Source: Hyaloraphidium curvatum | Lineage: Eukaryota > Monoblepharomycota > Hyaloraphidiomycetes > Hyaloraphidiales > Hyaloraphidiaceae | Length of the DNA stretch: 64,000 bases | Assembly: GCA_025558095.1 (NCBI GenBank) | Contig: JAIVFI010000041.1 | Location: 372,001-436,000, forward strand | Direction: 5' to 3' | Shown here: in pieces, positions 1 to 38,441 of the stretch | Layout: each line of letters begins with the position of its first letter | Position numbering within the stretch: position 1 is the stretch's first letter | The notes under the pieces: model-generated | Told to the model about the DNA's origin: nothing | Databases searched by the model: none | What the model saw: only the letters and a program-made list of their open reading frames with translations | Position numbers and translations under genes: made by a program

Positions 1-2300
1 CGGCGATTGAGCATCTGCTGCTTCATGAAGTACTCCAGGTTCTTGTGGTCCGTGAAGACGTCGACTTTATGCGGGCTACCCTCGAGGTATCGCCGCCACG
101 CCTTGAACGCGTCGACAACTGCGAGTAGCTCCTTGTCGTAGATCGGGTAGTTGATCTCCGCCGGCTGGAACTTCCGGGAATGAAACGCCACGGGATGCAT
201 AAGCCCGTCGTTGGGGGCGGGCTGCGACAGCACGGCTCCGAGGGCGAAGTCGGAAGCATCTGCCTCAACTGTGTACGGAACGGCTGGATCGGCGTTACGC
301 AGGAACGGAGCCGAAGTGAAAGCGGATTTGAGCGCATCGAAGGCTGCGCGAGCTTCCGGCGTGAAACGGAACGGATCGCCCGGCTTGAGCTTAGTGAGGT
401 CCGTGAGCGGAAGTGTGATCTGCGCGTAGTCCTTGATGAAGCAGCGGTAGAAGTTGGCAAAGCCGAGGAAGCTTTGGAGCTGGCGAAGGGTCGCAGGCTC
501 GGGCCATGAGGTGATGGACTCGACCTTGGAGGGGTCCATGATGACCTTGCCGTCGCCCACGATGAACCCGGCGTACTCGACGGTCGTAACATCGAACGAA
601 CACTTGGAGAGCTTCGCGTACAGGTGGTTGTCCCGGAGGCGCTGCAGAACCTGGCGCACATGCCCCGCGTGATCGGCTTCGTTCTCTGAGAAGATCAAGA
701 TGTCGTCGAGGTAGATCGCGACGAAGATGTCGAGTACGTCATGGAAGATGCTGTGCATGAAGCGCTGGAAGATGGCCGGCGCATTCATGAGGCCCATGGG
801 CATGACGAGGTACTCGAACTGGCCGTAGCGGGTGCGGAAAGCCGTCTTCCACTCGTCTCCTTCGCGGACGCGAATCTGACGGTAGGCTTCGCGGAGATCC
901 AGCTTGGTGAAGATCTTGGCACGGGAGAGGCGGTCCAGAAGGTCGGAAATGAGCGGGATCGGGTAGCGGTCTCGCTTCGTGATCCGGTTGAGACCGCGGT
1001 AATCCTCGCAGACGCGAAGCCCGCCGTCCTTCTTCTTTGCAAAGATGACTGGAACCCCGCTCGGAGAATCCGAAGGGCGGAGACGCCCCGATGCGGAAAG
1101 CTCTTCGATGTGCTTCCGGAGTGCCTCGGATTCGACTTCGGAGAGGCCGTGGAGACGTCCAGAAGGAGGGACTGCCCCTTCTTCGAGTTCGATTGCGCAA
1201 TCGAAACCGGGACGATGCGGCGGCAGTGACGATGCAGGCTTGTCCGGGTCGAAGACGTCCGCGAAGTCGGCGTACTGCGATGGGACCGTGGGCTCGGCGG
1301 CGGCCGCGCTTGCAGCGCGCGCGGCGGGGTCGGAGACCATGGCGACGAAGATCTGTGCGTCCTTGCGCTCGCGACGCATCTCGGCGACAAACTGGCGCGC
1401 CGAGAGATTAGCGATCTTCACCTTAGGCGGCGGAGGCGGAGGTACTTCCGGAGGCGCGCCCCGACCGGTCCCATCGGCCGGGGTTGGCCTCGGCGGTTGT
1501 TCGTCGACCCCGCGGCCCAAGGGGACGGCCTGCGGAGGTCTGCCTGCGTCGCCCGATCCCATGGAAGCCGAAAAAGAAGCCGTGTGTGGGTATTCGGACT
1601 CCGTGATGTCCTCGAGGATGGTCCGGTCGCTGGCCTGGCTGGAGGCGGGGTCAGCAGCTGGGAGACATCCACCGGCAGAGACGGATACGTCCACCGGGGC
1701 CGCCCGGCTGGCGCCTTCAGCCGGGCTTGTCTTTGGCGGTTCCTGATCCGCCGCCGGAGCCTTAGGCGCGCTCAACGGCGGGGAAACTCCCTGTGCGAAC
1801 GGGCGAGGGATCCGCAGGGATCGACGGGACCAATCGAGCGCCGCGTTCACGAACTCGAGGTACGAGAGTCCGAGAACGACCGGAATCGACGCGCTGATGA
1901 TGTTGAAGCTGACTCCGACGGTAATGCCATCGGCTGTCAGTGCGACGGGCTCCGTCTCCTGGGTGACGTCGCCCGACGAAATAGGCCGCCCGTCCACCAC
2001 GTCGAGCCCGAAAGGCGTGGAGCGCTGCAAGCACGAGTATCCAACGCAGCGCGCGAAAGCCTCGTCCATGAAGCAGGCGTCGGCGCCGGAGTCCACGAGT
2101 GCGTCCACGATCCGAAGCCGGCCGTCCGGAAGCACGATGCGCACGGGAATGACGAAGGAAGGAACCGGGTCGGACCGGAGCAGAGGAAATGGCGGCCGCC
2201 CGGAAGACGCCGCCAAGCAAGGGGCACGGGAAAACTGAAGACTTGTATTGGCATCGCCAGCGTCGGAGGTGCCCCGGAATCCGAGCTGGCGTTTCAAAAA
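1..2300 (-). CDS. Ty3-type Pol (protease, RT, RNase H), partial
   Basis: This frame is -1 relative to gag, runs from the gag stop to the window edge without a stop, and has no start codon of its own. An aspartic protease site, DSGAD, lies at 2079-2093. A Pro-rich linker follows. The reverse transcriptase shows the expected series VIFAKKKDGG, DYRGLNRIT, KLDLREAYRQIRV and the catalytic IYLDDILIF near 697-716. The connection/RNase H domain contains DASDFALGAVLSQ near 230 and FTDHKNLEYF near 40. Integrase and the 3' LTR must lie to the left of the window. Confidence 0.9.
2294..2300 (-). other. putative -1 ribosomal frameshift site at the gag stop
   Basis: On the minus strand gag ends TCT TTT TGA. 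A run of five T precedes GA. The pol frame is exactly -1 relative to gag and overlaps it with no stop, so a one-base slip of the Phe codon on the T run changes TTT-TGA into TTT-TTG and enters pol. This is a shift at the stop codon itself, not a classical X-XXY-YYZ heptamer well upstream. The frame relation is seen; the mechanism is inferred. Confidence 0.6.
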
Positions 2301-3487
2301 GACGACGATGCAGACTTGGCGGGGCAAAAGGCCTTGACGTGACCGGGCTGACCACAGTAAATGCAGAGCCCCTCGCGAAGGCGGCGCTGGCGCTCCTCCG
2401 GCGTCAGCTTGGCGCGCGACCCTGAGGACGCCGAGCCTGAAGCCCCGCCCGGCTGGCCAGATGCAGACGCGGAGCCCAGCACCATCGGCACGGGGCCGGA
2501 AGCACTTGCGGAAGGAGCTGCCGGAGAGACATGCGATCCGATGGGCACCGACTGCATCGCTCCGGGGTAGGGATACCCAGAGGTGGGCCGGTCGCGGCTC
2601 CGAGCTTTGCGCAGCGCAGCTTGCTGCTCGGAGAGGCGAACTTGAGCAGCAAATGCGATCTTCTTCGCTTCCTGGTACGTGCTGGGCTTCGAATGCTGGC
2701 CCATCTGGTTCACGATCTCCGCGGAGAGGCCAGCCAGGAACATATCCATGAACGTGGCATCACTGTAGCCCTCGACATCCGGCTTCAAGCTTTCAAATTC
2801 GACTGCGTATTCGGCCAGATGCCCGGGCTTCTGGACGAGTGCATGGAGCGCATTGACGGCGGAAGTGTGTCGAAGTGGCATCTGAAAGGTAGAGAGAAAC
2901 TCCTCGCGAAGCGAGATCCACGAGGGCGCAATCGTCCCGGAGCTGCTCTGCTGGGCAGCAAACCAGCGGAGCGCATCGCCCTTGAGAAGCAGACTGAAGA
3001 ACGCGATCTTTTGGGCGTCCGAGGCAAGCTCCGGCTTGAGCTCGAGCGCGTTGTCGACCTGCATCATGAAGTAACGGGTGCGTGCGTGATCGGTCCCGTC
3101 GAACTTGTCCGGGGTAGGCACGTTGATCGGTTTCGCGGTTGGGGCAGCAGCGGCGTGCTGGGGCAGGAACCCCATGCGCGCGACAGAGCCGACAAACGCG
3201 TCCGTGAGCGCAGCGGCGGACACCGAAATCGGAGCAGACAGAGGAGCGTGCTGCGCGACGTGGGTTGCTTGGGAAGCGCGGTAGGTGGCGACTTGGGCAC
3301 GGATCGGGAGCGCGATGAACTCGGGCTGAGCGTCGCCGAGGGCGTCCAAGAAGCTGACGAAAGCAGCACGCTCCTGCGGCTCGAGGGTATCAAGGAAAAC
3401 CCTTTCGCGCTCGATAAGGACTTCGACGGGAGTCTGGGGGTCCGGGGTCGCGGAGAGGAGATCGCGGAGAGCGTCGGCGCCAGCCAT
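2294..3487 (-). CDS. Ty3-type Gag polyprotein
   Basis: A 397-residue structural protein of the retroelement. Residues ~100-290 form a retrotransposon-gag capsid region with the typical pattern of a putative start at FDGTDHARTR, then WFAAQQSS and LREEFLSTFQ. A Ser/Pro/Gly-rich linker follows. One CCHC zinc knuckle, CIYCGQPGHVKAFC, sits at ~375-390 and would bind element RNA. The first ATG of the open frame gives a protein of normal Ty3 Gag size. The frame ends in a TGA directly after a run of T, where the pol frame takes over by a -1 shift. Confidence 0.9.
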   Translation of the reverse strand: MAGADALRDLLSATPDPQTPVEVLIERERVFLDTLEPQERAAFVSFLDALGDAQPEFIALPIRAQVATYRASQATHVAQHAPLSAPISVSAAALTDAFVGSVARMGFLPQHAAAAPTAKPINVPTPDKFDGTDHARTRYFMMQVDNALELKPELASDAQKIAFFSLLLKGDALRWFAAQQSSSGTIAPSWISLREEFLSTFQMPLRHTSAVNALHALVQKPGHLAEYAVEFESLKPDVEGYSDATFMDMFLAGLSAEIVNQMGQHSKPSTYQEAKKIAFAAQVRLSEQQAALRKARSRDRPTSGYPYPGAMQSVPIGSHVSPAAPSASASGPVPMVLGSASASGQPGGASGSASSGSRAKLTPEERQRRLREGLCIYCGQPGHVKAFCPAKSASSSF

Positions 3488-3684
3488 GCTGCACCGAGGG
3501 CGAGGTCACGGGGAACGGGAAACGTGGATTCAGGGTTGGAACGTCGTCAAACTGTCAGGACGGGGCGCGGGGGACCCGTAAAGACCTGTGTTGACGACGT
3601 TGAGGAGTCACTACACAGCACTGCGCCTAGTCTTCCCTCGCCGGGGACCACCGTCCCCCTTGCCCCGACGCCGGCGCGTTACAG
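3488..3684. other. short spacer between Gag start and membrane-gene exon
   Basis: About 200 bases that should hold the element's 5' leader and perhaps its LTR, followed by the 3' end of an intron (acceptor GTTACAG ending at 3684) of the plus-strand gene. A stretch on the minus strand beginning TGGTCCCC (around 3650) could pair with a tRNA 3' end, but it is not next to a convincing LTR terminus, so I do not call a primer-binding site. Confidence 0.4.
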
Positions 3685-6083: not shown

Positions 6084-6940
6084 ATGGCCCGCCTCGCCTC
6101 CGCCGCCGTCCTCGCCCTTTTTGCCCTTTTCTTCCTTCTGGCCGCCGCCCCGCGCGCGTCCACGCTGCCGAACGACGCCGCCGCGAAGGCCTTCTGCCGC
6201 CGCAACTTCTGGACCGACGCGGTGCGCAGGCCGCCTCTCCGAGCTCCGTGCGAGCCCGCGGTGACTTTTCCGCCTTTTTCCCAGCCGGTGGTGTTCTCGA
6301 CGACCACGCAGACATACTACACGGTGCGCCCCACCGCCCCACCTGCGCCTCTTGGTCTCACCCGGGGCCCCGCGCGCGCAGACCTGGACCTACACCGTCT
6401 ACCTGCCCGAAACGGCGACCACGACGACCGACGGCTCTGCCTCGACCCTGGAGGTTCGTTTTCGGGGCGAAGATCCGGGTGCGCCCCGCGGGCACGTGCT
6501 TACGCTGCTCCCGCCGTTCTCGCCTTTCTCCAACCCGATCTCCCGGCGGTCTGCATTTTGTGAAGCCCGTGATCACCCCCACCATGACCGCCAGCACCAT
6601 CGAGCCCTCGATCTCCGCCTCGACCGCCGAACCCTCGATCACCGCCTCCACCGTCGAGGTATCCCTAGCTGCACGCCGCCACTTTGGCACCGATCTGACC
6701 TCGAGCCTCCTTCCTTCGCAGCCCGCGCCGTGCACTGCGGGCACCGAGACCCTGGTCGTCACCTCCGTCGTCGTGTCCACCGTCGAGGTCGAGGTCACGC
6801 TAACATCGCTCGCGTACCTGGAGGTCCCGACGACGGTCTTCGTGACGGAGGTGGGCATGCACGGCGCAAAAGGAGATGGGCAGACTGACACCGTCGAATG
6901 CTGCGCACGCAGACAATCTATGGGGCCCGTTGAGGGGTGA
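6084..6940 (+). CDS. secreted Thr-rich protein, family member A
   Basis: Five exons: 6084-6221, 6285-6323, 6382-6453, 6566-6658 and 6722-6940, all internal joins in phase 0. Exon 1 encodes a signal peptide (about 28 residues, ending ...APRAST) and the family block LPND, then FCRRNFWT. Exon 2 is a 13-residue STTTQT exon, exon 3 begins TWTYTVYLP, exon 4 repeats ST(V/I)EPSI, and exon 5 begins with a Pro-Cys pair followed by Val/Thr-rich strands. Genes B and C share this order, but A stops after exon 5 and lacks their long Thr-rich 3' part, so it is a short form or a truncation. The function is unknown; a heavily O-glycosylated surface or wall protein is the obvious inference. Confidence 0.78.
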
Positions 6941-7180: not shown

Positions 7181-8784
7181 TCAAAACCAGTGGAGGCCCG
7201 AATTCCTGCCGGGAACAGTATACCCCACCGCGCGCACACGGAGCAAGTGCCCTTCGGCTTCCCGCCGGACGGGGCAGTCCGGCTGGAGGGTGTCCAAAAG
7301 GCGCAGGAGGTGGCGCACAAAGTTCGGCACGGCAGAAGAGAAGCCCGTGGATGATGCGGAGCGGTACGCAACGACGACCTGGTGCAGAACGACCGCGGGG
7401 TTTCGAGGAGGAGAGAGGTGGCGAAGGATAGGCCCGCTCGATGGAGAGGTGGGGGGTTGCGAAGCAGCGGGTACGGCCTGTGCCCGACTCGGTGTACTCA
7501 AGGACCGCAGATAGGATCTCCTGTCGACCGGGCGCTGCGGCCGGAAGCGCGATTTCGACGGCGACTTGCCGCGCATCCTCGTCGAGGTAGAAGTCGCTAA
7601 TCGCAACCTCTCTCGGCGACGATTGCTCAGACGGCAATGTGCTCCAGATGTTCGTGATGCTCCCCTCGGTGGCTTGGGCGGGGATCCGCATGCGGAGTGT
7701 GCAGGCGGTGATCTCCTTCGCCCTGACCTTCGCGACGTCGAAGTTAATCAAGATGCTTGAGGAATCGTCCGTCACGGAGAACACGGTTGGATACCGGTCG
7801 GGGCTCGAGAGCTGCACCGTTCTGGACGCCCACGCCGTACGCCAGCAAAGTGACCGCCTTGCTCTTGCACATGGCTTTGAGCTCGCAGACGGTTTCCGTC
7901 GGCAGCTCATCGTCCGAATCCGTAAACAGGAGCACACGGTTTGCAGCGCGCCTGGTCCCCGCAGCGGTGCGGGCTCGGATCAGCCCAAGGCCGCGACGCA
8001 CCCCGCGGAGGATGTCGGTCCCGGAGCCAGTCTCGAGCGAATCAACGAGCTCGATCACGCTCGTCTTGCCCGCAGCATCCATCCGCGTGAGCCCCGAAAG
8101 CAGGTCCGCGCGGCTGTCGAAAGCGACAACTGCCAACCTGTCGTCCTCCGACAGTGTGTCCGAGACGATGTCGCGGAGGGCGTCCTTAACAAACCCCATC
8201 CGGCCGTCGGCTACCATGCTTGAGCTACGGTCCATGACGACCACAAGGTCGATTGCCCGGGCACGAACGGATTGCGGGGCACAGATTCGGGCCAGGGCCG
8301 AGACCCGAACCTCGCCCAGGGCCGACAGCGCAGAGAACTCGGCCTCCAACACTACCGGGTCCGTTGGTGGAACAGTCGTGGCAACGGCTGTCACGCCGGC
8401 CAAATCGACAGCACTATCGGCGGCGTCGAGTCCGAGCTGCTGGGGCATGCGCACCTCGCCGCCCGTCCACCAGTTGGCGCCGATCGACTCATCTTCGATA
8501 CGAGGTACGCGACGAGCCTGCGGTGTGCGAGGTGCTCGGGGGGTATCGGGCGCCGCAAGCCCTGCGGCCGGGGTGTTGCCCGACGGGCTGAGGCCGAGCC
8601 GCTGCCGGCACATCGGGCACGTGGCAAGCGCGTCACTCTCCAGCAGCCGCCCGAAGCAGCGGTAGTGCATCGCGTGCCCGCAGCCCGACTCGACTATGGC
8701 GCGTCCGCCGCGGTGCTGGAGATCCGTGAGGCAGATGGGGCACGCGTCGGGCTCCGCGACGCGGCCGGGCGCTGCGATGGGCAT
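7181..8784 (-). pseudogene. RING-H2 / von Willebrand A (WAV3-like) gene with broken frames
   Basis: From the ATG at 8784 the frame encodes a RING-H2 finger (CPIC, CGHAMHYRC, CPMC, residues ~12-58), a linker with WWTGG, and a VWA domain opening VVVMDRSSSM with a MIDAS-type DxSxS and a later TDSDDE. This RING-VWA order is that of WAV3-type ubiquitin ligases. After LLAYGVGVQNG, near 7830, the frame is lost. The expected post-VWA segment (VAVEIALPAAAP, SAVLEYTESGT) continues in a second frame, and a helical C-terminus (around VVLHQVVVAYRSAS) in a third, ending at 7181. I found no good GT-AG introns explaining either change, so it is called a probable pseudogene; sequencing indels or undetected introns are the alternative. 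Confidence 0.55.
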
Positions 8785-22506: not shown

Positions 22507-25500
22507 TCACGGTGTAAGGGTCTGCACGAGAACACAGATCACGCACGACGCTCCGCGAAACTCAGCCGAGGGCGCACCTCGAGGGCGTCGGGGGCAATTC
22601 TGAGGGTCGCCGTGGCCTGCTCTCCAGGGCCCGTTCCGGTAGCGGCAGTTATGATTAATGCGAATGTGGATCCAGAAATCCCGTCGGTGGTGCTGGTGGA
22701 TGGCCCAGCCTCGGTCGTTTCGGTCGACCCCTCAGAGGTCTGGAAGGCAACGGTGACGATCGTCGCGGTCGTGAGCTCGGTGGTCGTCAGAGGCACGAAC
22801 TCCGAGGTTGACGAAGTTATCGTGGGCTCCGTCATCTGGTGCCGGGGTCGAAGGCAGCCAAAGTCAGATCCAGCGCGTCCGAGCTGAGGCAAACCCACGG
22901 TCCAGCTCGGCGGCAGAACGCTCCGTTCGGTGGTCGACGCGGTGCTTGTCGCGAACGTCCAGAAGGGGGACGTGCTGGTCGAAGTCTCGGCGGTGCTCGC
23001 AATCCCGGCTCCGAAAGTCGTGGAGAACACCGTGGTCGAGGTCTAGAAGGAAGTCGCGTCAGCGATCGCCCTCCCGGAACTGAAATGCCAAGGCACCCAC
23101 GGTCGACAGTGAGGGCTCGGAGGTGGTCACGGGCTCGGTCGTCGTGCTCCGCTCCTGCGAGGCGGTCGAGGCGCTAGTCAGGCTGGTGATCGGGGCCTTG
23201 GTTGTGGTCGTGTGCGGCGCTGCTTCCGAGGTCGTGGCGGGCGGCCGGTCGGTCTGCCAGGAGTCTATGGTCAGCAAAAGGCATGCTGCTTTCTCCAGCA
23301 CGATCTCACCGTCTCCGTGCTCGTTGCCGCGGTCGTGGACGCTAGCGCCTGCGTTTCCGTCGTGACGGCGGCGATCTCGGAAGTGGTGGCGAAGGTGAGG
23401 GCCGTCGTGGTCACCCCGGGCTCCAATGTCGACATCGAAGTCACGGGAAGCTCGGCCTGTGGAGGAGACATACAGAGCGCGAGCGCGACCGTCGATACAG
23501 TGGACCCACGGTCGAGATCTGCTCCTCGGTGGTGGCAGCCTGCGTCGTGCTCGCCTCAGGCGCGGTGATCGAAAGCGTCGGGATCGCGACGGTGCTGATG
23601 TCGAGGGTGGTGCTGCCGATGCCGGGTGCCGAGGTCGTGATCGCGGAAGTCGAGGTCTGAAAAGATCACGATCAGCCACGATACCGCGAACCCGGACACC
23701 GGATGCCCACAATCGGCGCTCTAGACTCCTCCGTGGTCGCCACATCCGTTGAGGGCACGATCGCGATGCTGCGCGTCGGGATCGGGGTCTCGATTGGGAG
23801 CGTCGCGCTCGGCGCCTCGGAGGTGGTCTCGGGCATGGTCAGGGTCGCAAAGGTGGGGATCTGGAAGGGTGACTACATCAGAAGTAGGCCGATATGAAGT
23901 TCCAGAGACACCCACAATAGATGCAGAAGGCTCCGAAATAGTGCCGACCTCCGTCGGGATCGAATCCGTGCTGACGCCCGCCGACAACGACGTCGTGATC
24001 ACCGCGCTGGAGGGGAAAGATTCCGAGCTGATCGTGCCACTGGCCTGGATGGTTGAGCTTGTCTCGATCGCGATGTCCGAAGTCGGGGTCAACGTGGCCG
24101 CGGGCGGGCTCTGCGGCAAGAAGAGCAGATCAAAGATGTCAGCGAGGGCAGCGCCGGGGGATCCGGGGGATCTCGGCGCGGCACGGGGCGACGTGCGCTC
24201 GGGGGGTCTGGAGTGGCTCGCGTCGGGAACGTCTGATTGTACCGACCAACGGTGGGTAGTCTATTCGAGGGACAGGCATCCTTATATCCTGCTTTGCCAC
24301 TGTGCGTCCTGCTCCGCCACGATGACGTCCCAATGACTCCTGAGTGTACCCGGTTCCCAACCCATCCCAGCAATCGGAGCAAGGGCGTATCCGTAACACC
24401 CCCCCTCGGCCGCAGCTCCGTCAAAGCTTGAGACGAACAACGCCGAGTGCACGACGGGCCACATCCATGCGGGCTCCGGGGAGCGCCTTGGTGAGGATAT
24501 CGGCCGCGTTCTGCGCCGTAGGGACGTAGACCAGCTTGATCGCGTCGCGCTCGATCGCGTCGCGAAGGAAGAAGGACTTGATCGCCACGTGCTTGGTCGA
24601 GTCCTTCGAGGTAGGGGCCGCGGCCAGCGCGATCGCGCCGCGGTTGTCGCAGTAGATCACGGTGGGCTCCGTGACGGGCATGCCGATGGTGTCCAACTTG
24701 TTCCGCCACGACAGGCCCTCCTTCGCCGCCATCACCACCCCGTGCAGCTCCGCCTCCGTCGAGCTCAGCGCGACCGTCTGCATCTTGCGCGAGATCCAGC
24801 TGATGGCTGCTCCGTTGTTGAAGAAGGCCAGGCCCGTCACCGACTTCCTGTCGTTGACGTCCGAGGCCCAGTCGGCGTCGGAGTACCCGTAGATCTGCCC
24901 CTTCCCTTGCGTGTACTTGATGCCGAAGTCGACCGTGCCGGCAAGGTAGCGCAGCAGCCGCTTGAGTGCTGCCCAGTGCTCCTGCCCGGGGTTGGTCATG
25001 AACGCAGCCAGGTTGTGTACCGTGGAGACGATATCGGGGCGCGTCCCCTCCGCGAGGTACATGGCGAGCCCGACGCCCCTGGCGTACGGCTTATCGGCCA
25101 TCGCGGCGCGCGCCTCCGGGGTCTGGGGGCACATGTCGAACGTGAGCACGCCCGAGTCCATGGGCGAGTTGACGGGCCGACAGTCCGTCATCCCGAACTC
25201 CTCGAGCAGGTTGCGCGTGTATGTCGACTGGTCGATCGACGCCCACCCGTCCCCGCGGCGGATCCGCATCCCGACGATGAACTCGGGTTCGCCCTTGTCG
25301 GTGATGGTGAAGATCGACTTGAACTGGTTCTTCGCCTCGTCGAGGTACGCCCTGTCATTCGAGACCCAGAGCACGTCGTCGACGTAGATGGCTGCGAGGA
25401 TCCACTTCCCGTCATCCGAATGACGGAAGTAGAGACAAGGATCTGCCGGCGAGTTCTCGAAGCCCATGCCCTGGAGGGTTCTGGCGGCCTCCTTCCTCGT

Positions 25501-28500
25501 CCTCAGCATGGCCTCCTCCTCCTGAGTCCCGTCGCCGCGCAGGGTGGCGTCCAGCTTGCGGTTCCACTCGTAGCCTGCCTGCCGGAGCCCGTAGAGCGGC
25601 CGAAGGAGGCGGAGCACGCCCCCCCTACCCGCAGCAGCCAAGAGCTCCTCGGTTTTGGCTTTCGTCGCGGCGTCAAGGTCGGGCTCCTTCAACACGAGCT
25701 CCAGGACCTGTGCGTAGCCTTCCGGCTCCCGCATGAACAGCAGTTCCTTCAGTTCGCCGAAGAGGTACGCCAGCTTCACGTCAGTGTGAGCGGCGTGGAG
25801 ACTGGGATCGGCGAGGAGGGAAATGAGGAAGCGGATGGTGCTGAGCTTGGCCGTCGGAGCGAAGACCTCCTTGAAGTCGATGCCCTCCTTCTGCGTGAAG
25901 CCCTGCGCCACCAGCCGCGCCTTCTTCTTCTCCTCCGAGCCGTCCGAGTTGTACTTGGTCTTATTGGCCCATTTGCAGCCAATCGCGCGGCGTCCGGGCG
26001 GCAGCGTCGCCGCCTCGATGGTGTCGCGCTCAATGATGCCCCGGAGCTCGGCCACGAAAGCCTTCAGCCATGCCTCCCGGTGCGGGCCGGCCAGGGCTTC
26101 CTTGAAGGTGGGTTCCGGGTTCCCGATCTCGTCGACGTTCGCCACTCCGGCGAGCTCGACCGCGCGCTGCGCGGCGGAGGAGAGGAGGGCCGCCAGCCCG
26201 AGGTGGCTGGCCGCGAGGTGATCGTCCGGATCCACGTCTCCGTCCTCGTCGTCCTCCTTGATCGCCGAATGCTGGCGGTGAAGCTCCTCCCACTCGTCAA
26301 GCATGGATGATCCGTCGTTGATACGGCGCTGTCCGGCGCCGGCGCGGATGGAACGACGTGTTCCCCCCCTCGCCTCCTGGGGGTGGTCGTCTTGCGCCCC
26401 AGCATCCTGCCGATCATCCCCCCCCGACCCCGAGGATTGCGCCCCAGCGGCGTCCGCGGGCGGAGAGGAGGGGGTCTCGTTGGCAGGGGCCGGGTTGTTG
26501 TCGCCGAAGACGACGCGCGGGCGCAGCGCCGGGTGCCCCTGCGTCGGCAGCGCGGGGAGGCGTACCGGCGGGATCACGCCCTCGTCGAAGACAGCAGTCT
26601 GGAAGTCCTTGTACGCCCCCGTCTTCGGGTCCGCAATCCGGAAGCCCTTCGTCCCCGGGGGAAAACCAACGAAGACGCCGGCGAAGCCGTGGGGGTCGAG
26701 CTTGTGCGGGAGCGTGCTGACCGGGATCCGCCCGACGGCGGGGCAGCCGAAGGCGGGGAGCTTGCCAAGCTTCGGCTTCTGGCCGTAGCGGGCTTCGTAG
26801 GGGGAGATGCCGCCGAGCGCGGCGTGGGGGGAGCGGTTTCCGAGCCAGTTGGCGTGGCGAACGGCGTGCGGCCAGAGGCGCTTCGGCAAGTTCGCATCCG
26901 TGAGCATGGTAAGCGCGCACTCCACGATGGTGCGGTTGTAGCGCTCGGCGATGCCATTCTGTGCCGAGGTGTTCGGTGCGGGAGTCTCCAGGCGTGCCCC
27001 CTTGTCCTCCAGATAGCGTCCCAGCTCCTCGTACTCACCGCCGCGATCGACGCGCGCAGCCTTGAGATTCCGCTCGCTTTCCGTCGCCCACTGCTTCGTC
27101 ATCTTCTCGAAAGCCTTCGATGCGCCCGCCTTGCTGTAGTGCGTGATCAGATCCGCCCAGCGCGTGGCGTCGTCGATCGCCGTCGTGAAAACCTTGGAAC
27201 GATCGTGTCCCTCAACGCTCATGTCGCAGACATCCGAATGCACGAGATCCAAGAAGTCCCGCTCCTGTTTCTCCGCCGGCGGCATCGGCGCCTGCGTCAG
27301 TTTCCCTTGTGCGCAAGCGTAGCAGAAGCCGAGTTGCTGGCGGGTCCAGCCCGACGTGTCGACGTCAGCGAGGCCGTTCTTCCGCGCGATGTCATGCATC
27401 CGGCCCTGGCTCATGTGCCCTAGACGGCGGTGCCACAGCTGGAATTCCTCGTGCTCGTCGAGCTTGACTGCGGGCAAAGCCTCCCCGGCCTCTGCCGAGG
27501 GTTTCGCGATGTAAGCCAGGATGGCGAACGACTTGCCGGGGGTTGAAAAGACAGCGCGCGGCTTCTTGTCGTCCTCGCGGCGGTAGATCTCACAGTACGT
27601 GTGCTTGAAGGTGATCTTCTGGCCCTTCCTCGTCGCAAACTTGATGCTGAGTAGGTTGTACGCCAACTCGGGGACCACGAGGGTGTCGGGGAGCAGGCAC
27701 GGAACCCATCCGTCCTTCGATCTCGCCCAGATCACTGCGTCGCCGATCGCCGTGGCGGCAACCTGCGTCTTGTTGCCGAGGAAGACCTTCGATTCGATGG
27801 GGCGCAGCGTTCCAGGCACGAAGCAATCCGTCCTGGGGGTCATGTGCGCCGTCGCTCCCGAATCGAGCTTCCAAACGTGCGCTCCGTTCCGAGAACTCTC
27901 CTCGAGATCGTCGGCCACGAGCGCGGTGTTGTCGGCCGTACCAGCCTCAGTAGGCGGCGCCCCTGCCGTCGGGCCCTCGCGCTTCGCCGCCTCCTCGGCG
28001 GGGAAACCCTGCTTGGGCACGATCGGGGCTCGTCCCGTCTTCACCTTCCCGCGCACGATCTCGGTCTCGTCCTCCGAGTCCGAGTCGATGTCCTCCAGAG
28101 GCGGCATCTCATTGTCCGCGACGGGGGCCGGGGAGGGGGTACTCTGGGCGCCATTGTCGGTCGACGCGGTCGATTCCCGTCCAACCGACGCGTCCGAATC
28201 GTACAGGTGCTCATCGTCGGAGCTCCAGTTCTTGGCGTCGGAGGAATCAAGCGCGTCCTGAACCACGAACATGTCGGCCAGGGGATCGGCGTGAGCGGCG
28301 AGGAGCTCTTCCAGCTCGTCGTCATCGCCGGCGTCGTGCACGGCGATCAGGGAGAGTTGCTCTTCGTCGCTGCCACCGCCGGGCTGCGGAGGGGAGGGGC
28401 AGTTCTTCTTGATGTGCCCTGCGCCGCCGCAGTTGTAGCAGCGGACGGCGGCGGCGGGGCCCTGCCGCGGCGGCTTGCCGACGGTAGCCTTGCCCTTGTC

Positions 28501-31053
28501 GCCGTTCGCGGTCTGCTTCGGGGTTCCAGCGCCCTTGCCAGCTCCGTCGTTCTTGCGAGACGAAAGCTGCCGCTGGAGGGTGGTGACGAGCGCCTGGAGC
28601 TCGTCGTCCTTGAGATTCTTCGCATCCACGTCGCCGGTCGTCAGCTTCGCTGCTTCCTTCTTGGCGGCGGTGCCCGCGGGGGCCGGTCCAGCCTCAACGC
28701 GCGGGCGATCGCCTTGGGAAGCCTCCTCGTGACGGATGGCGAGCACAGCCCGGTCCATGGTGACCGGGATGCCTTGCGCGGCCGAAGTGCGGAGCATCTT
28801 GACCACCACGTCGTACTTCTTCTCCATCCCGCGCAGGAACAGCCTCAACTGCTCGTGATCGGGGCCGTAGCCGGGGTTGATGAGGCGCAGCGACTCGGCG
28901 CTTTCGCGGATCCGATCGGCGAAAACCTCGATGCCCTCCCGCGGCTTCGGGGTCATGTTGGCGAAGTCCTGTAGCCAGATGTTCGCGTATTGCTGCGCCG
29001 TTGTGATGGCGTCCGCGGTGACGGCGTTGAACACCGCCTCGCATGCCATCATCCCGTCAAGGCGCATACGGATCGCATGGGTGTTGTCGACCGAGCGCCG
29101 GGCGATGCCCAGCGCCTTGCTGACGACTTTCTCGCGCTTCTCGAGCCTCAAGTCGAAAGACTCCCAGGCCTTCTGGATGGCGCTGATCTCGTTGGTCGAC
29201 GACAGCCTTATCGACATGCCTTCGCGCTCATCAGGGCTGATCACCGTAAACGTCTCCACGTTCATCACTTCGCGGTACGCTCGGATCATCTGCGGGGTGG
29301 CGACGGCGATATCGACGCCGTCGCCTGCGGCGAGCTCCCGCAGGGCTTCGAGCCAGGTGTCCCGCATGTACGCGGGCTCGCGGGTGTAATCAGGCATGTT
29401 GAGCACGTATAGTCCCGGCCTCTCGAGCGGGGTTGGGATCGGAGCGGGCGTCCGCCGGTGGGCGTCAGCGACTTCGTTCACGCTCAGCGCATTGGTGAGG
29501 CTGCGGAGCCAGGCAGGATAGTTCTTGCCGTCGTAACGGGCTCCGGTGTACGTGAAGGTGGTCGCCGATGCCATGATGATGCGGGGGGCGAGCTTCGATG
29601 CGGGGCGCGGAAACTGCGGGTTGCGCGCTCGAGCGGGCAGGCGGTTCTCTCACGGGGAACTCGGCCGGACCGGTTGGAAGGGGCTCCGAAGACGCTTCGG
29701 AGCCGAGTGAGTTCGAGTCAGACGACCAGTCGTCGAGCCGTGGGCTTGGGCTCGTGACCTGTCAGCGAGGGCAGCGCCGGGGGATCCGGGGGATCTCGGC
29801 GCGGCACGGGGCGACGTGCGCTCGGGGGGTCTGGAGTGGCTCGCGTCGGGAACGTCTGATTGTACCGACCAACGGTGGGTAGTCTATTCGAGGGACAGGC
29901 ATCCTTATATCCTGCTTTGCCACTGTGCGTCCTGCTCCGCCACGATGACGTCCCAATGACTCCTGAGTGTACCCGGTTCCCAACCCATCCCAGCAATCGG
30001 AGCAAGGGCGTATCCGTAACAAAAGATCGGTCGACACACGGAGGCAGTCCGAAATCACCGTCGGCGCAGGAGTCTGCTCGATGCTCGTGGTCTCTGTGGT
30101 CTCCGACGGCTCCAGCAAGGTCACTGCGGTGGCCTGCGAGGTGGCCGGAGGCGCTTCCGGTGCGGTCTCAGTCTCCAAAGTGCCGGTGGGCTTGGGCTTG
30201 ACGACCATGGTCTGCAGAGCGGTCAATGAGCTGAAAGTTTCCAGCATCCAAAGGATATAGAGCTCACCTGCGTGGTGGTCGACGGGACGGAAGTGGTTTC
30301 AGAAGGAGTCGTGAAGGAAATGCCAGGCGAGTCGGTCGAGGTCGAGATCTCGGTGGGGCAGACGGACACGACGGTTACAAAGTGCGAGAAGACGACGGTG
30401 CTGAAGTTGAACGTGATGGTCGCCGGGCAGGGGTCGAGCTGCGAGGAGAGGTGGTCAGGGCGTGCGAATGCAGGGCGGGCTGCGAGATCGCGCACCGTGC
30501 TGGGTTCGACGGTCCAAAGCGAGGTGATCGAGGGCTCGACGGTGCTCTGCGAAGCAAAAGGAGGTAAGAAATGCCGAGATAATGGAAAGATCGGAGCAAG
30601 GAAGGCGATAGAAAGGGCATCAGTGACGTTGGTCCCGCGCTGCCCAGCAGAGTGAGAACGCCGACCTTCGTGGCGCCACTGGGCTCCCCAGTCGTCGTGC
30701 TAGGCGCAGTAGTGGCATTGCTGAGCATCGGGAGGTACACGGTGTAGGTCCAGGTCTGCGGACAAAGGCACTTCAGAAGGGGCGCTCGCAAGTCACCGGT
30801 CGAGCTTTACCGTGAGCACAGTCTGCGTGGTCGTCGAGACAACGTGGGGCTGCAACGATAAAGGGAGAATGCTGAGCACACGTCCGCGCGTGCTGCTTCT
30901 GGGCCGTCTTCGCACCGCTTCGGTCCAGAAGTTGCGGCGGCAGAAGGCGCGCGCGGCGGCGTCGTTCGGCAGCGCGGACGCGCGCGGGACCGCGGCGAGC
31001 GCGAAGACGGTCACAAGGAGCGCGGCACTGGCGGCAGAGGCGACGCGGGCCAT
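22507..31053 (-). CDS. secreted Thr-rich protein, family member C, split by a copia element
   Basis: Fourteen exons, all joined in phase 0: 31053-30916, 30849-30811, 30755-30666, 30546-30496, 30438-30268, 30211-30059, [copia], 24110-23916, 23860-23711, 23656-23510, 23456-23310, 23253-23101, 23042-22899, 22835-22578, 22521-22507. Every internal exon length is a multiple of three and the predicted protein has 616 residues. Exon 1 has the signal peptide and FCRRNFWT block, exon 3 starts TWTYTVYLP, exon 5 has the Pro-Cys pair. The rest is Thr/Ser/Val/Glu-rich with repeated TTSE and STT themes, and the last exon encodes only TLTP. Intron 6 is 5948 nt because it holds the retrotransposon. A mucin-like wall or surface protein is inferred. 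Confidence 0.75.
24132..24136. repeat. target site duplication, left
   Basis: AAAGA immediately outside the left LTR, matched by the same five bases at 30022-30026. Confidence 0.9.
24137..24398 (-). repeat. 3' LTR of the copia element
   Basis: 262 bp, same sequence by eye as 29760-30021. It contains GGATATAAGG in element orientation, a TATA-like box. The terminal dinucleotides are TG and CA. Confidence 0.95.
24399..24407 (-). other. polypurine tract of the copia element
   Basis: GAGGGGGGG in element orientation lies directly against the TG of the 3' LTR and about 14 bases after the gag-pol stop, exactly where the plus-strand DNA primer is expected. Confidence 0.85.
24421..29574 (-). CDS. 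copia Gag-Pol polyprotein
   Basis: One 1717-residue frame with no internal stop. Domains in order: capsid-like Gag (1 to ~370), CCHC knuckle CYNCGGAGHIKKNC (~380), aspartic protease site LDSGATAHM (~568), GAG-pre-integrase HRRLGHMSQ (~716), integrase core with HSDVC and AIDDATRW (~785 on), reverse transcriptase with KWANKTKYN and the active site YVDDVLW (~1396), and RNase H with SSTEAELHGV and DNRGAIALA (~1600-1650). Protease, integrase, RT, RNase H is the copia order. All catalytic motifs are intact. Gag and Pol are in a single frame, so their ratio must be set after translation or by RNA processing. Confidence 0.96.
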   Translation of the reverse strand: MASATTFTYTGARYDGKNYPAWLRSLTNALSVNEVADAHRRTPAPIPTPLERPGLYVLNMPDYTREPAYMRDTWLEALRELAAGDGVDIAVATPQMIRAYREVMNVETFTVISPDEREGMSIRLSSTNEISAIQKAWESFDLRLEKREKVVSKALGIARRSVDNTHAIRMRLDGMMACEAVFNAVTADAITTAQQYANIWLQDFANMTPKPREGIEVFADRIRESAESLRLINPGYGPDHEQLRLFLRGMEKKYDVVVKMLRTSAAQGIPVTMDRAVLAIRHEEASQGDRPRVEAGPAPAGTAAKKEAAKLTTGDVDAKNLKDDELQALVTTLQRQLSSRKNDGAGKGAGTPKQTANGDKGKATVGKPPRQGPAAAVRCYNCGGAGHIKKNCPSPPQPGGGSDEEQLSLIAVHDAGDDDELEELLAAHADPLADMFVVQDALDSSDAKNWSSDDEHLYDSDASVGRESTASTDNGAQSTPSPAPVADNEMPPLEDIDSDSEDETEIVRGKVKTGRAPIVPKQGFPAEEAAKREGPTAGAPPTEAGTADNTALVADDLEESSRNGAHVWKLDSGATAHMTPRTDCFVPGTLRPIESKVFLGNKTQVAATAIGDAVIWARSKDGWVPCLLPDTLVVPELAYNLLSIKFATRKGQKITFKHTYCEIYRREDDKKPRAVFSTPGKSFAILAYIAKPSAEAGEALPAVKLDEHEEFQLWHRRLGHMSQGRMHDIARKNGLADVDTSGWTRQQLGFCYACAQGKLTQAPMPPAEKQERDFLDLVHSDVCDMSVEGHDRSKVFTTAIDDATRWADLITHYSKAGASKAFEKMTKQWATESERNLKAARVDRGGEYEELGRYLEDKGARLETPAPNTSAQNGIAERYNRTIVECALTMLTDANLPKRLWPHAVRHANWLGNRSPHAALGGISPYEARYGQKPKLGKLPAFGCPAVGRIPVSTLPHKLDPHGFAGVFVGFPPGTKGFRIADPKTGAYKDFQTAVFDEGVIPPVRLPALPTQGHPALRPRVVFGDNNPAPANETPSSPPADAAGAQSSGSGGDDRQDAGAQDDHPQEARGGTRRSIRAGAGQRRINDGSSMLDEWEELHRQHSAIKEDDEDGDVDPDDHLAASHLGLAALLSSAAQRAVELAGVANVDEIGNPEPTFKEALAGPHREAWLKAFVAELRGIIERDTIEAATLPPGRRAIGCKWANKTKYNSDGSEEKKKARLVAQGFTQKEGIDFKEVFAPTAKLSTIRFLISLLADPSLHAAHTDVKLAYLFGELKELLFMREPEGYAQVLELVLKEPDLDAATKAKTEELLAAAGRGGVLRLLRPLYGLRQAGYEWNRKLDATLRGDGTQEEEAMLRTRKEAARTLQGMGFENSPADPCLYFRHSDDGKWILAAIYVDDVLWVSNDRAYLDEAKNQFKSIFTITDKGEPEFIVGMRIRRGDGWASIDQSTYTRNLLEEFGMTDCRPVNSPMDSGVLTFDMCPQTPEARAAMADKPYARGVGLAMYLAEGTRPDIVSTVHNLAAFMTNPGQEHWAALKRLLRYLAGTVDFGIKYTQGKGQIYGYSDADWASDVNDRKSVTGLAFFNNGAAISWISRKMQTVALSSTEAELHGVVMAAKEGLSWRNKLDTIGMPVTEPTVIYCDNRGAIALAAAPTSKDSTKHVAIKSFFLRDAIERDAIKLVYVPTAQNAADILTKALPGARMDVARRALGVVRLKL
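29760..30021 (-). repeat. 5' LTR of the copia element
   Basis: 262 bp, promoter-bearing LTR upstream of the gag-pol frame. The TATA-like GGATATAAGG would drive genomic RNA. The inner boundary is followed in element direction by GGTCACGAGCCC; no clear tRNA primer-binding match was recognised. Confidence 0.95.
30022..30026. repeat. target site duplication, right
   Basis: AAAGA immediately outside the right LTR; partner of 24132-24136. Removing the element and one copy restores a 58-nt GT-AG intron. Confidence 0.9.
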
Positions 31054-37167: not shown

Positions 37168-38441
37168 ATGGCCCGTCTCGCCTCCGCCGCCGTTGCCGCG
37201 CTCCTTGTGTCCGTCTTTGCGCTCGCCACCGCCCCGCGCGCGTCCGCGCTGCCCAACGACGCCGCCGCGAAGGCCTTCTGCCGCCGCAACTTCTGGACCG
37301 TCGCGGTGCGCAGGCGCTCCTCCGCCCGCCGCGCGAGCTCGCCCTGACTTCTTTCGTCCTTTTCGCAGCCGGAGGTTGTCTCGACGACCACGCAGACGGT
37401 CTATACGGTGCGCCCCACCGCTGACTCGCGCGGAGCGAACCTTACCCTGGGCCGTCCGCGCGCAGACCTGGACCTACACCGCGTACCTCCCGATGCCGGG
37501 CATGACCTCCGAGACGCCGTTGGCCACCACCGAGATCCCCAGCACGACGGAGCAGGTGGAGATTCGCACGCGGCTGGCGGTGTCGGGACCGCCGTCACTA
37601 ATTGACTTCTCTCCGCCCTGCGTGCTCCGATCTTTTTCCTTCCATCCTCTTCTCGTTGCAGACTGCTTCGCTGAGCACCGTTGAGCCATCGATCACGCCG
37701 CTGTCGACCGCGGAGCCGACGACGGTCAGCGATCTGCGTGTCTCCGCTTCGGACCGCGCTGACCTTCTTTTCCTTCGCAGCTCTACCCGTGCACCGCCAC
37801 TGTCTCGTACAACTACACTACGGTCATCGTCTCGCTGATCGAGAGCCCCGTGACAACCTTCGTTACCGAAACCTCGTTCTCTTCGGTTACCGTCGCGGTC
37901 ACCTCGTTTATCACCCAAATCGAGACGCAGCAGGTCAACTTCACGACCACGATGGAAATCCCCACGACCGTAACCGTCACATCGGTGCGTTTGCTTTGGC
38001 GACTTGGGCTCTAGCATGCATCTGACGTCGCGATCGCGCATGAAGACCCTCTTCGTCCTTCCCAAGACCACCTCGGCCGCCAAGGAGACCAGCAGCGGCA
38101 CGGCTCCCGCTTCTGCGACCATCGCTGCGTCCACCGAGGAGCCCGCCATCTCGACTGCGAGTGGCCGACTTCGTCCGCGTGCCTATCGGCCTCGCTCACT
38201 TCCGCCCCTCGCAGACCGCCGCCCCGATCGTTTCGACCACCGACGCGGGACTCGTCACTAGCTCTGCTCCCGGACCGGCTTCCACCGCCGCCGTCGAAGG
38301 CCCGACCTCCAGCTTCGCCGGGCCCGGCGCGTCCCTCACGGCTTCCCGCACGACCCAGGTGAGACGGCCACGACTCCTCATCACCCGTTCGTCTCACCTT
38401 TCCCTGCCTCGCAGACTCTCGTTGCTCCCGCCAACTTCTAA
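37168..38441 (+). CDS. secreted Thr-rich protein, family member B
   Basis: Eight exons, all phase 0: 37168-37305, 37369-37407, 37466-37555, 37662-37724, 37781-37984, 38067-38156, 38215-38358, 38415-38441. The product is 264 residues. Exons 1 and 2 have exactly the same lengths (138 and 39) as in genes A and C, with the same signal peptide, FCRRNFWT and STTTQT blocks. Exon 3 starts TWTYTAYLP; exon 5 has YPCTATVSYNYTTV and Thr/Val repeats; exon 7 is Ser/Thr/Ala/Pro-rich; the last exon encodes TLVAPANF. The intron after exon 6 keeps phase 0 only if it starts with GC (GCGAGT), a non-canonical GC-AG intron. An O-glycosylated surface protein is inferred. Confidence 0.77.

Follow-up and report, generated by a model that had tools for sequence, protein, structure and literature searches.

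A complete Ty1/copia retrotransposon in a 58-nt intron of a predicted secreted-protein gene of Hyaloraphidium curvatum

The stretch of DNA analysed here (the window; 64,000 nt, C41:372001-436000 of the 31.9-Mb, 55-contig genome) carries a retrotransposon within intron 6 of a predicted gene, which raises the question of what the element inserted into and what becomes of the transcripts of the gene that now surrounds it. We give a probability of roughly 0.8 to the account developed below, in which a copia element inserted by chance into a 58-nt intron and mostly truncates the host product. Feature coordinates, which refer to the window unless another contig is named, are collected in Table 1.

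The initial annotation described a complete copia element flanked by a 5-bp duplication, and the interval is indeed a complete, young Ty1/copia (Pseudoviridae) element. Its two 262-bp LTRs, reported as identical, match at 262/262 bases and have the TG start and CA end of Ty1/copia; the duplication AAAGA is found on both sides, and a polypurine tract and a tRNA primer-binding site, also typical of Ty1/copia, are present. The single gag-pol frame contains a zinc knuckle, a DSG protease motif, pre-integrase, integrase SH3, RVT_2 with YVDD, and RNase H. Based on Pfam, the integrase lies ahead of RVT_2 (gag_pre-integrs 732-783, SH3_retrovirus 955-1025, RVT_2 at 1212), which is the copia order; a DDE-like integrase stretch, read by eye, lies between gag_pre-integrs and SH3_retrovirus. 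The element and the host gene have the same orientation.

Table 1. Positions of the element, the host gene and related features
Feature	Position	Strand	Evidence or remark
Full-length Ty1/copia LTR retrotransposon, 5,885 bp	24137..30021	-	LTR pair, target-site duplication, open gag-pol frame, Pfam domains
5' LTR, 262 bp	29760..30021	-	TGTTAC...CTGACA in sense; TATAA at sense offset 112
3' LTR, 262 bp	24137..24398	-	same sequence as 5' LTR
Target-site duplication AAAGA, copy 1	30022..30026
Target-site duplication AAAGA, copy 2	24132..24136
Primer-binding site GGTCACGAGCCC	29748..29759	-	two mismatches to initiator tRNA-Met anticodon region (GGGCTCATAACC)
Polypurine tract GAGGGGGGG	24399..24407	-	adjoins 3' LTR
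Single gag-pol ORF, 1,717 aa	24421..29574	-	ATG at 29574, stop at 24421
Host exon 1, 138 nt, MARVASAASAALLVTVFALAAVPRASALPNDAAARAFCRRNFWTEA	30916..31053	-	signal-peptide-like start; same length in both paralogues
Host exon 2, 39 nt	30811..30849	-	same length in both paralogues
Host exon 3	30666..30755	-	gene model
Host exon 4	30496..30546	-	gene model
Host exon 5	30268..30438	-	gene model
Host exon 6, 153 nt, phase 0	30059..30211	-	last before element
Host intron 6, 5' part	30027..30058	-	donor GTGATT at 30058
Host intron 6, 3' part	24111..24131	-	acceptor TTGCCGCAG ending at 24111
Host exon 7, 195 nt, phase 0	23916..24110	-	first after element
Host exon 8	23860-23711	-	gene model
Host exon 9	23656-23510	-	gene model
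Host exon 10	23456-23310	-	gene model
Host exon 11	23253-23101	-	gene model
Host exon 12	23042-22899	-	gene model
Host exon 13	22835-22578	-	gene model
Host exon 14	22521-22507	-	gene model; ends TLTP-stop
Paralogue 2 (inverted neighbour)	37168..38441	+	ends TLVAPANF-stop
Paralogue 2 probable intron 6, 58 nt, phase 0	38157-38214	+	GC-AG (GCGAGT...CGCAG)
Paralogue 3, exons 1-5 of 138, 39, 72, 93 and 129 nt	6084..6850	+	phase-0 introns
Sister copy of element	G000:C11 about 754660-760518

The insertion had also been called recent, and the lack of any LTR difference (0/262; K < 0.011 at 95%) agrees with this, although it bounds the age only loosely, at less than 0.6-5.7 million years under assumed rates of 1e-8 to 1e-9. 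In the whole genome, the LTR sequence occurs at two loci only, one in the window and one on contig C11, and no solo LTRs of the element were found. A handful of changes separates the two copies over the approximately 5.2 kb compared, and in the C11 copy the pol frame is broken. This copy is intergenic: one minus-strand gene ends on one side of it and another starts on the other, and it lies in front of a gene that appears oxidoreductase-like when read by eye. Its outer LTR ends are trimmed by 22 and about 10 bp, and its flank carries a 29-bp duplication with a further tandem copy, unlike the normal 5-bp target duplication.

The primer-binding site of the C11 copy (GGTTATGAGCCC; C11 760256-760273) has exact complementarity to the anticodon region of a tRNA-Met whose gene is present in the same genome, and which we take, from its TGATCGAAAC arm, to be the initiator. 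Two of the few differences between the copies fall inside the 12-nt primer-binding site of the window copy, where they sit opposite A35 and A37 of tRNA-iMet. A search for a second primer tRNA with CTCGTGACC found no tRNA gene in the ten loci examined of 13 matches. Since complementarity is to an internal segment of the tRNA and not to its 3' end, as in Hemivirus-like elements, the site is, as judged from base pairing, of the half-tRNA kind by which the genus Hemivirus is defined (PMC8515867).

Several other elements were observed in the window and the genome. A Ty3-type gag ORF (Retrotrans_gag, Ty3_capsid) lies on the minus strand of the window at 2297-3505. A Zn2Cys6-type domain match that fell just under the Pfam cut-off points, along with the short introns, to a fungal genome. 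Two other copia families, with copy numbers of about 9 and 12, are mostly present as one copy per contig, at internal positions, and may mark centromeres. A head-to-tail copia array was seen in G000:C36:174001-184000 (at 2317-2990 and 8004-8677 of that interval), with two directly abutting LTRs, a 336-bp step and a 5,687-bp period.

Turning to the target site, the initial annotation proposed that a minus-strand donor and acceptor flank the element and that 58 nt, the usual intron length, remain once the element and one duplication are removed. When recomputed in this way, the empty site is a GT-AG stretch of exactly 58 nt, with the donor and acceptor at the positions listed in Table 1. We scored it with a splice model that combines codon usage, donor, branch, acceptor and length, with introns capped at 160 nt; the model was trained on 100 kb made up of ten 10-kb stretches of other contigs, with the empty site outside the training set, and earlier runs that over-called introns or were trained on the window itself were dropped. 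The 89 confident introns in these 100 kb have a median length of 59 nt (quartiles, 55-64 nt; 5-95%, 50-94 nt), which bears out the claim about length. The empty site scored 5.3 for the donor, 6.8 for the acceptor and 4.2 for the branch, and its total of 5.4 falls at the 73rd percentile of the 89 introns. The donor hexamer GTGATT is uncommon and departs from GTGRGY (GTGGGT, GTGAGT and GTGAGC are common in the training introns); nonetheless, the whole intron scores well, with GT, branch and AG in order, a length usual for the genome and phase 0 on both sides. An alternative donor within the empty intron, GTGTGT, was rejected, as it is in the wrong phase and would leave a 39-nt intron.

How often such a stretch arises by chance was assessed by counting positions that lie within an intron-like stretch of 50-66 nt with a score equal to or higher than that of the empty site. 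On the sense strand of genes, 1.9% of positions qualified, as against 0/62,965 antisense positions and 0/269,625 positions in codon-shuffled coding sequence; these two nulls were used in place of a coverage test on called exons, which is circular. In the host exons, the sense frame and one of the antisense frames are indistinguishable by codon statistics. The reading frames also require removal of the stretch: because 58 = 3x19+1, the flanking frames differ by one base if the intron is left in, and both reach a TGA, which lies 13 codons into the empty intron for the exon-6 frame and at the intron start for the exon-7 frame when this is followed backwards. Taken together, the splice-model score, the nulls, the frame logic and a corresponding intron in paralogue 2 indicate that the insertion target was almost certainly an intron.

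The host gene model spans the element and comprises 14 exons and 13 introns on the minus strand, from the ATG at 31053 to the stop at 22507. All of the introns are in phase 0, as had been stated for the two exons next to the element; those of exons 8-14 (22507..23860) are 53-63 nt long. The long exons encode a product rich in Thr, Ser, Ala and Pro (27% T and 15% S in exons 6-13), and a Pfam scan of parts of the protein found no family. Read by eye, the N-terminus is signal-peptide-like, which is consistent with the earlier description of a secreted-protein gene, as a prediction. Pairwise similarity among exons 6-13 is not above that of shuffled sequence, leaving recent exon duplication unsupported.

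The window holds a local cluster of three Thr/Ser-rich secreted-type paralogues, at 6084, 31053 and 37168; every modelled intron of their shared exons is in phase 0. All three genes begin with exons of 138 and 39 nt and continue with one that starts TWTYT(V/A)YLP, and the introns of the shared exons occur at the same places and in the same phase. In paralogue 2, the exon that corresponds to host exon 6, as judged from the intron before it, is followed by a probable 58-nt intron in phase 0 that matches host intron 6, although this counterpart requires a GC donor; the last exons of the two genes also resemble each other. These observations bear on the possibility that two genes or pseudogene fragments merely abut the element and that the 58-nt "intron" is coincidental. 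The exon junctions do rest on predicted models, the protein is of low complexity and lacks a Pfam family, and high G+C produces long open frames in all frames; however, the independent splice model and its nulls, a phase-0 exon series that continues across the site, and paralogues that share the 5' end and the style of the 3' end make this very improbable. The two paralogues, together with the splice model and the frame logic, instead add to the support for the initial proposal that a single short intron was hit.

That the element family targets introns or splice signals seems extremely improbable. The window copy is intronic and sits next to the branch region, and the C11 copy is flanked by donor-like sequence (GTGAGT); however, the latter is situated between two minus-strand genes and not in an intron, and there are only two copies in the genome. 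With introns accounting for approximately 9% of the 100 kb sampled, it is unremarkable that one of two insertions is intronic. Intron targeting was rejected because the only other copy is intergenic, and the reading that we prefer is integration by chance.

Both splice sites survive on opposite sides of the element, the donor on its 5' side and the acceptor, together with the pyrimidine tract and branch region, on its 3' side, so that they delimit a potential intron of 5,948 nt. Fungal splicing proceeds mainly by intron definition (PMC2397502), and the most poorly spliced introns of Cryptococcus neoformans include those >500 nt, even in the wild type (PMC11913375); splicing over 5.9 kb would for these reasons be inefficient, with the proviso that such inferences are carried over from Cryptococcus and from cross-kingdom results and may not describe the host's behaviour. 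Read-through from exon 6 is open to 29762. No good cryptic acceptor was found within 160 nt, where the best candidate scores -2.5 (the 5th percentile of the training introns is -0.16), and a cryptic short splice into the 5' LTR was rejected on this score.

We also considered whether efficient splicing removes the element together with the surrounding intron as one 5.9-kb intron, leaving the host gene essentially unaffected. The intact donor and acceptor would allow this, no strong short-range cryptic acceptor competes with the resident one, and the terminal CTGACA of the 3' LTR supplies a branch-site-like CTGAC upstream of the resident acceptor, raising the best branch score there from 4.2 to 5.4. 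Against this, the called introns of the genome are mostly 50-94 nt long (5-95%, in a model capped at 160 nt), a short-intron basidiomycete splices long introns poorly (PMC11913375), and the sense LTR has a promoter motif and must presumably carry the element's RNA-processing signals; efficient splicing is accordingly unlikely. A related scenario, in which the 5.9-kb intron is removed at a useful rate with the LTR CTGACA as a new branch site and both the host protein and the intact element are expressed from the one locus, we regard as distinctly improbable.

In the account that we favour, a Ty1/copia element integrated, with a 5-bp duplication, between the donor and acceptor of the 58-nt phase-0 intron 6, and the insertion may have been tolerated because it missed coding sequence and two paralogues lie close by. 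Recognition of the short intron would now mostly fail at the occupied site, and transcripts from the host promoter would mostly retain intron sequence or end in the LTR, while the element would be transcribed from its own LTR. Given the sense orientation, the element's own LTR promoter and the recognition of short fungal introns by intron definition, truncated or chimaeric transcripts are the likelier outcome. Reading of unspliced RNA would continue into the 5' LTR, and on this analysis the likeliest product is a protein that stops about 98 residues past exon 6; most messages of the host gene are probably shortened. Rare joining of exon 6 to exon 7 over 5.9 kb is possible because both splice sites survive, and the CTGAC motif may aid it. 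If the suggestion of continued splicing over 5.9 kb holds for the host gene at all, it probably holds only in part.

Compared with known systems, the element resembles Hemivirus-like members of Ty1/copia (Pseudoviridae) such as Drosophila copia in its order LTR-gag-PR-INT-RT-RH-LTR within a single gag-pol frame, and in its 5-bp duplication, polypurine tract and primer-binding site on the initiator tRNA-Met anticodon region; it differs in that the window copy has two primer-binding-site mismatches relative to both the tRNA and the sister copy. Intronic transposable elements that can alter host transcripts have been described at Arabidopsis RPP7 and in rice (PMC7145194), and the locus therefore represents a known kind of insertion. 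The open-access papers searched contained no close precedent for fungal intronic copia insertions, a result that does not show that none exists. The locus shares with the Arabidopsis RPP7 and rice cases a transposable element in a host intron, which lengthens that intron and can affect splicing or transcript ending; unlike in those cases, the target intron was only 58 nt long, in a compact fungal genome with intron-definition splicing. The insertion is an ordinary kind of mutation and a clean example of it. With splice sites and open frames undamaged, and with an exact reconstruction of the original 58-nt intron, it provides a clean natural test case. It could show how an intron-definition spliceosome handles an intron lengthened a hundredfold, and whether a host gene is truncated by a young insertion in sense.
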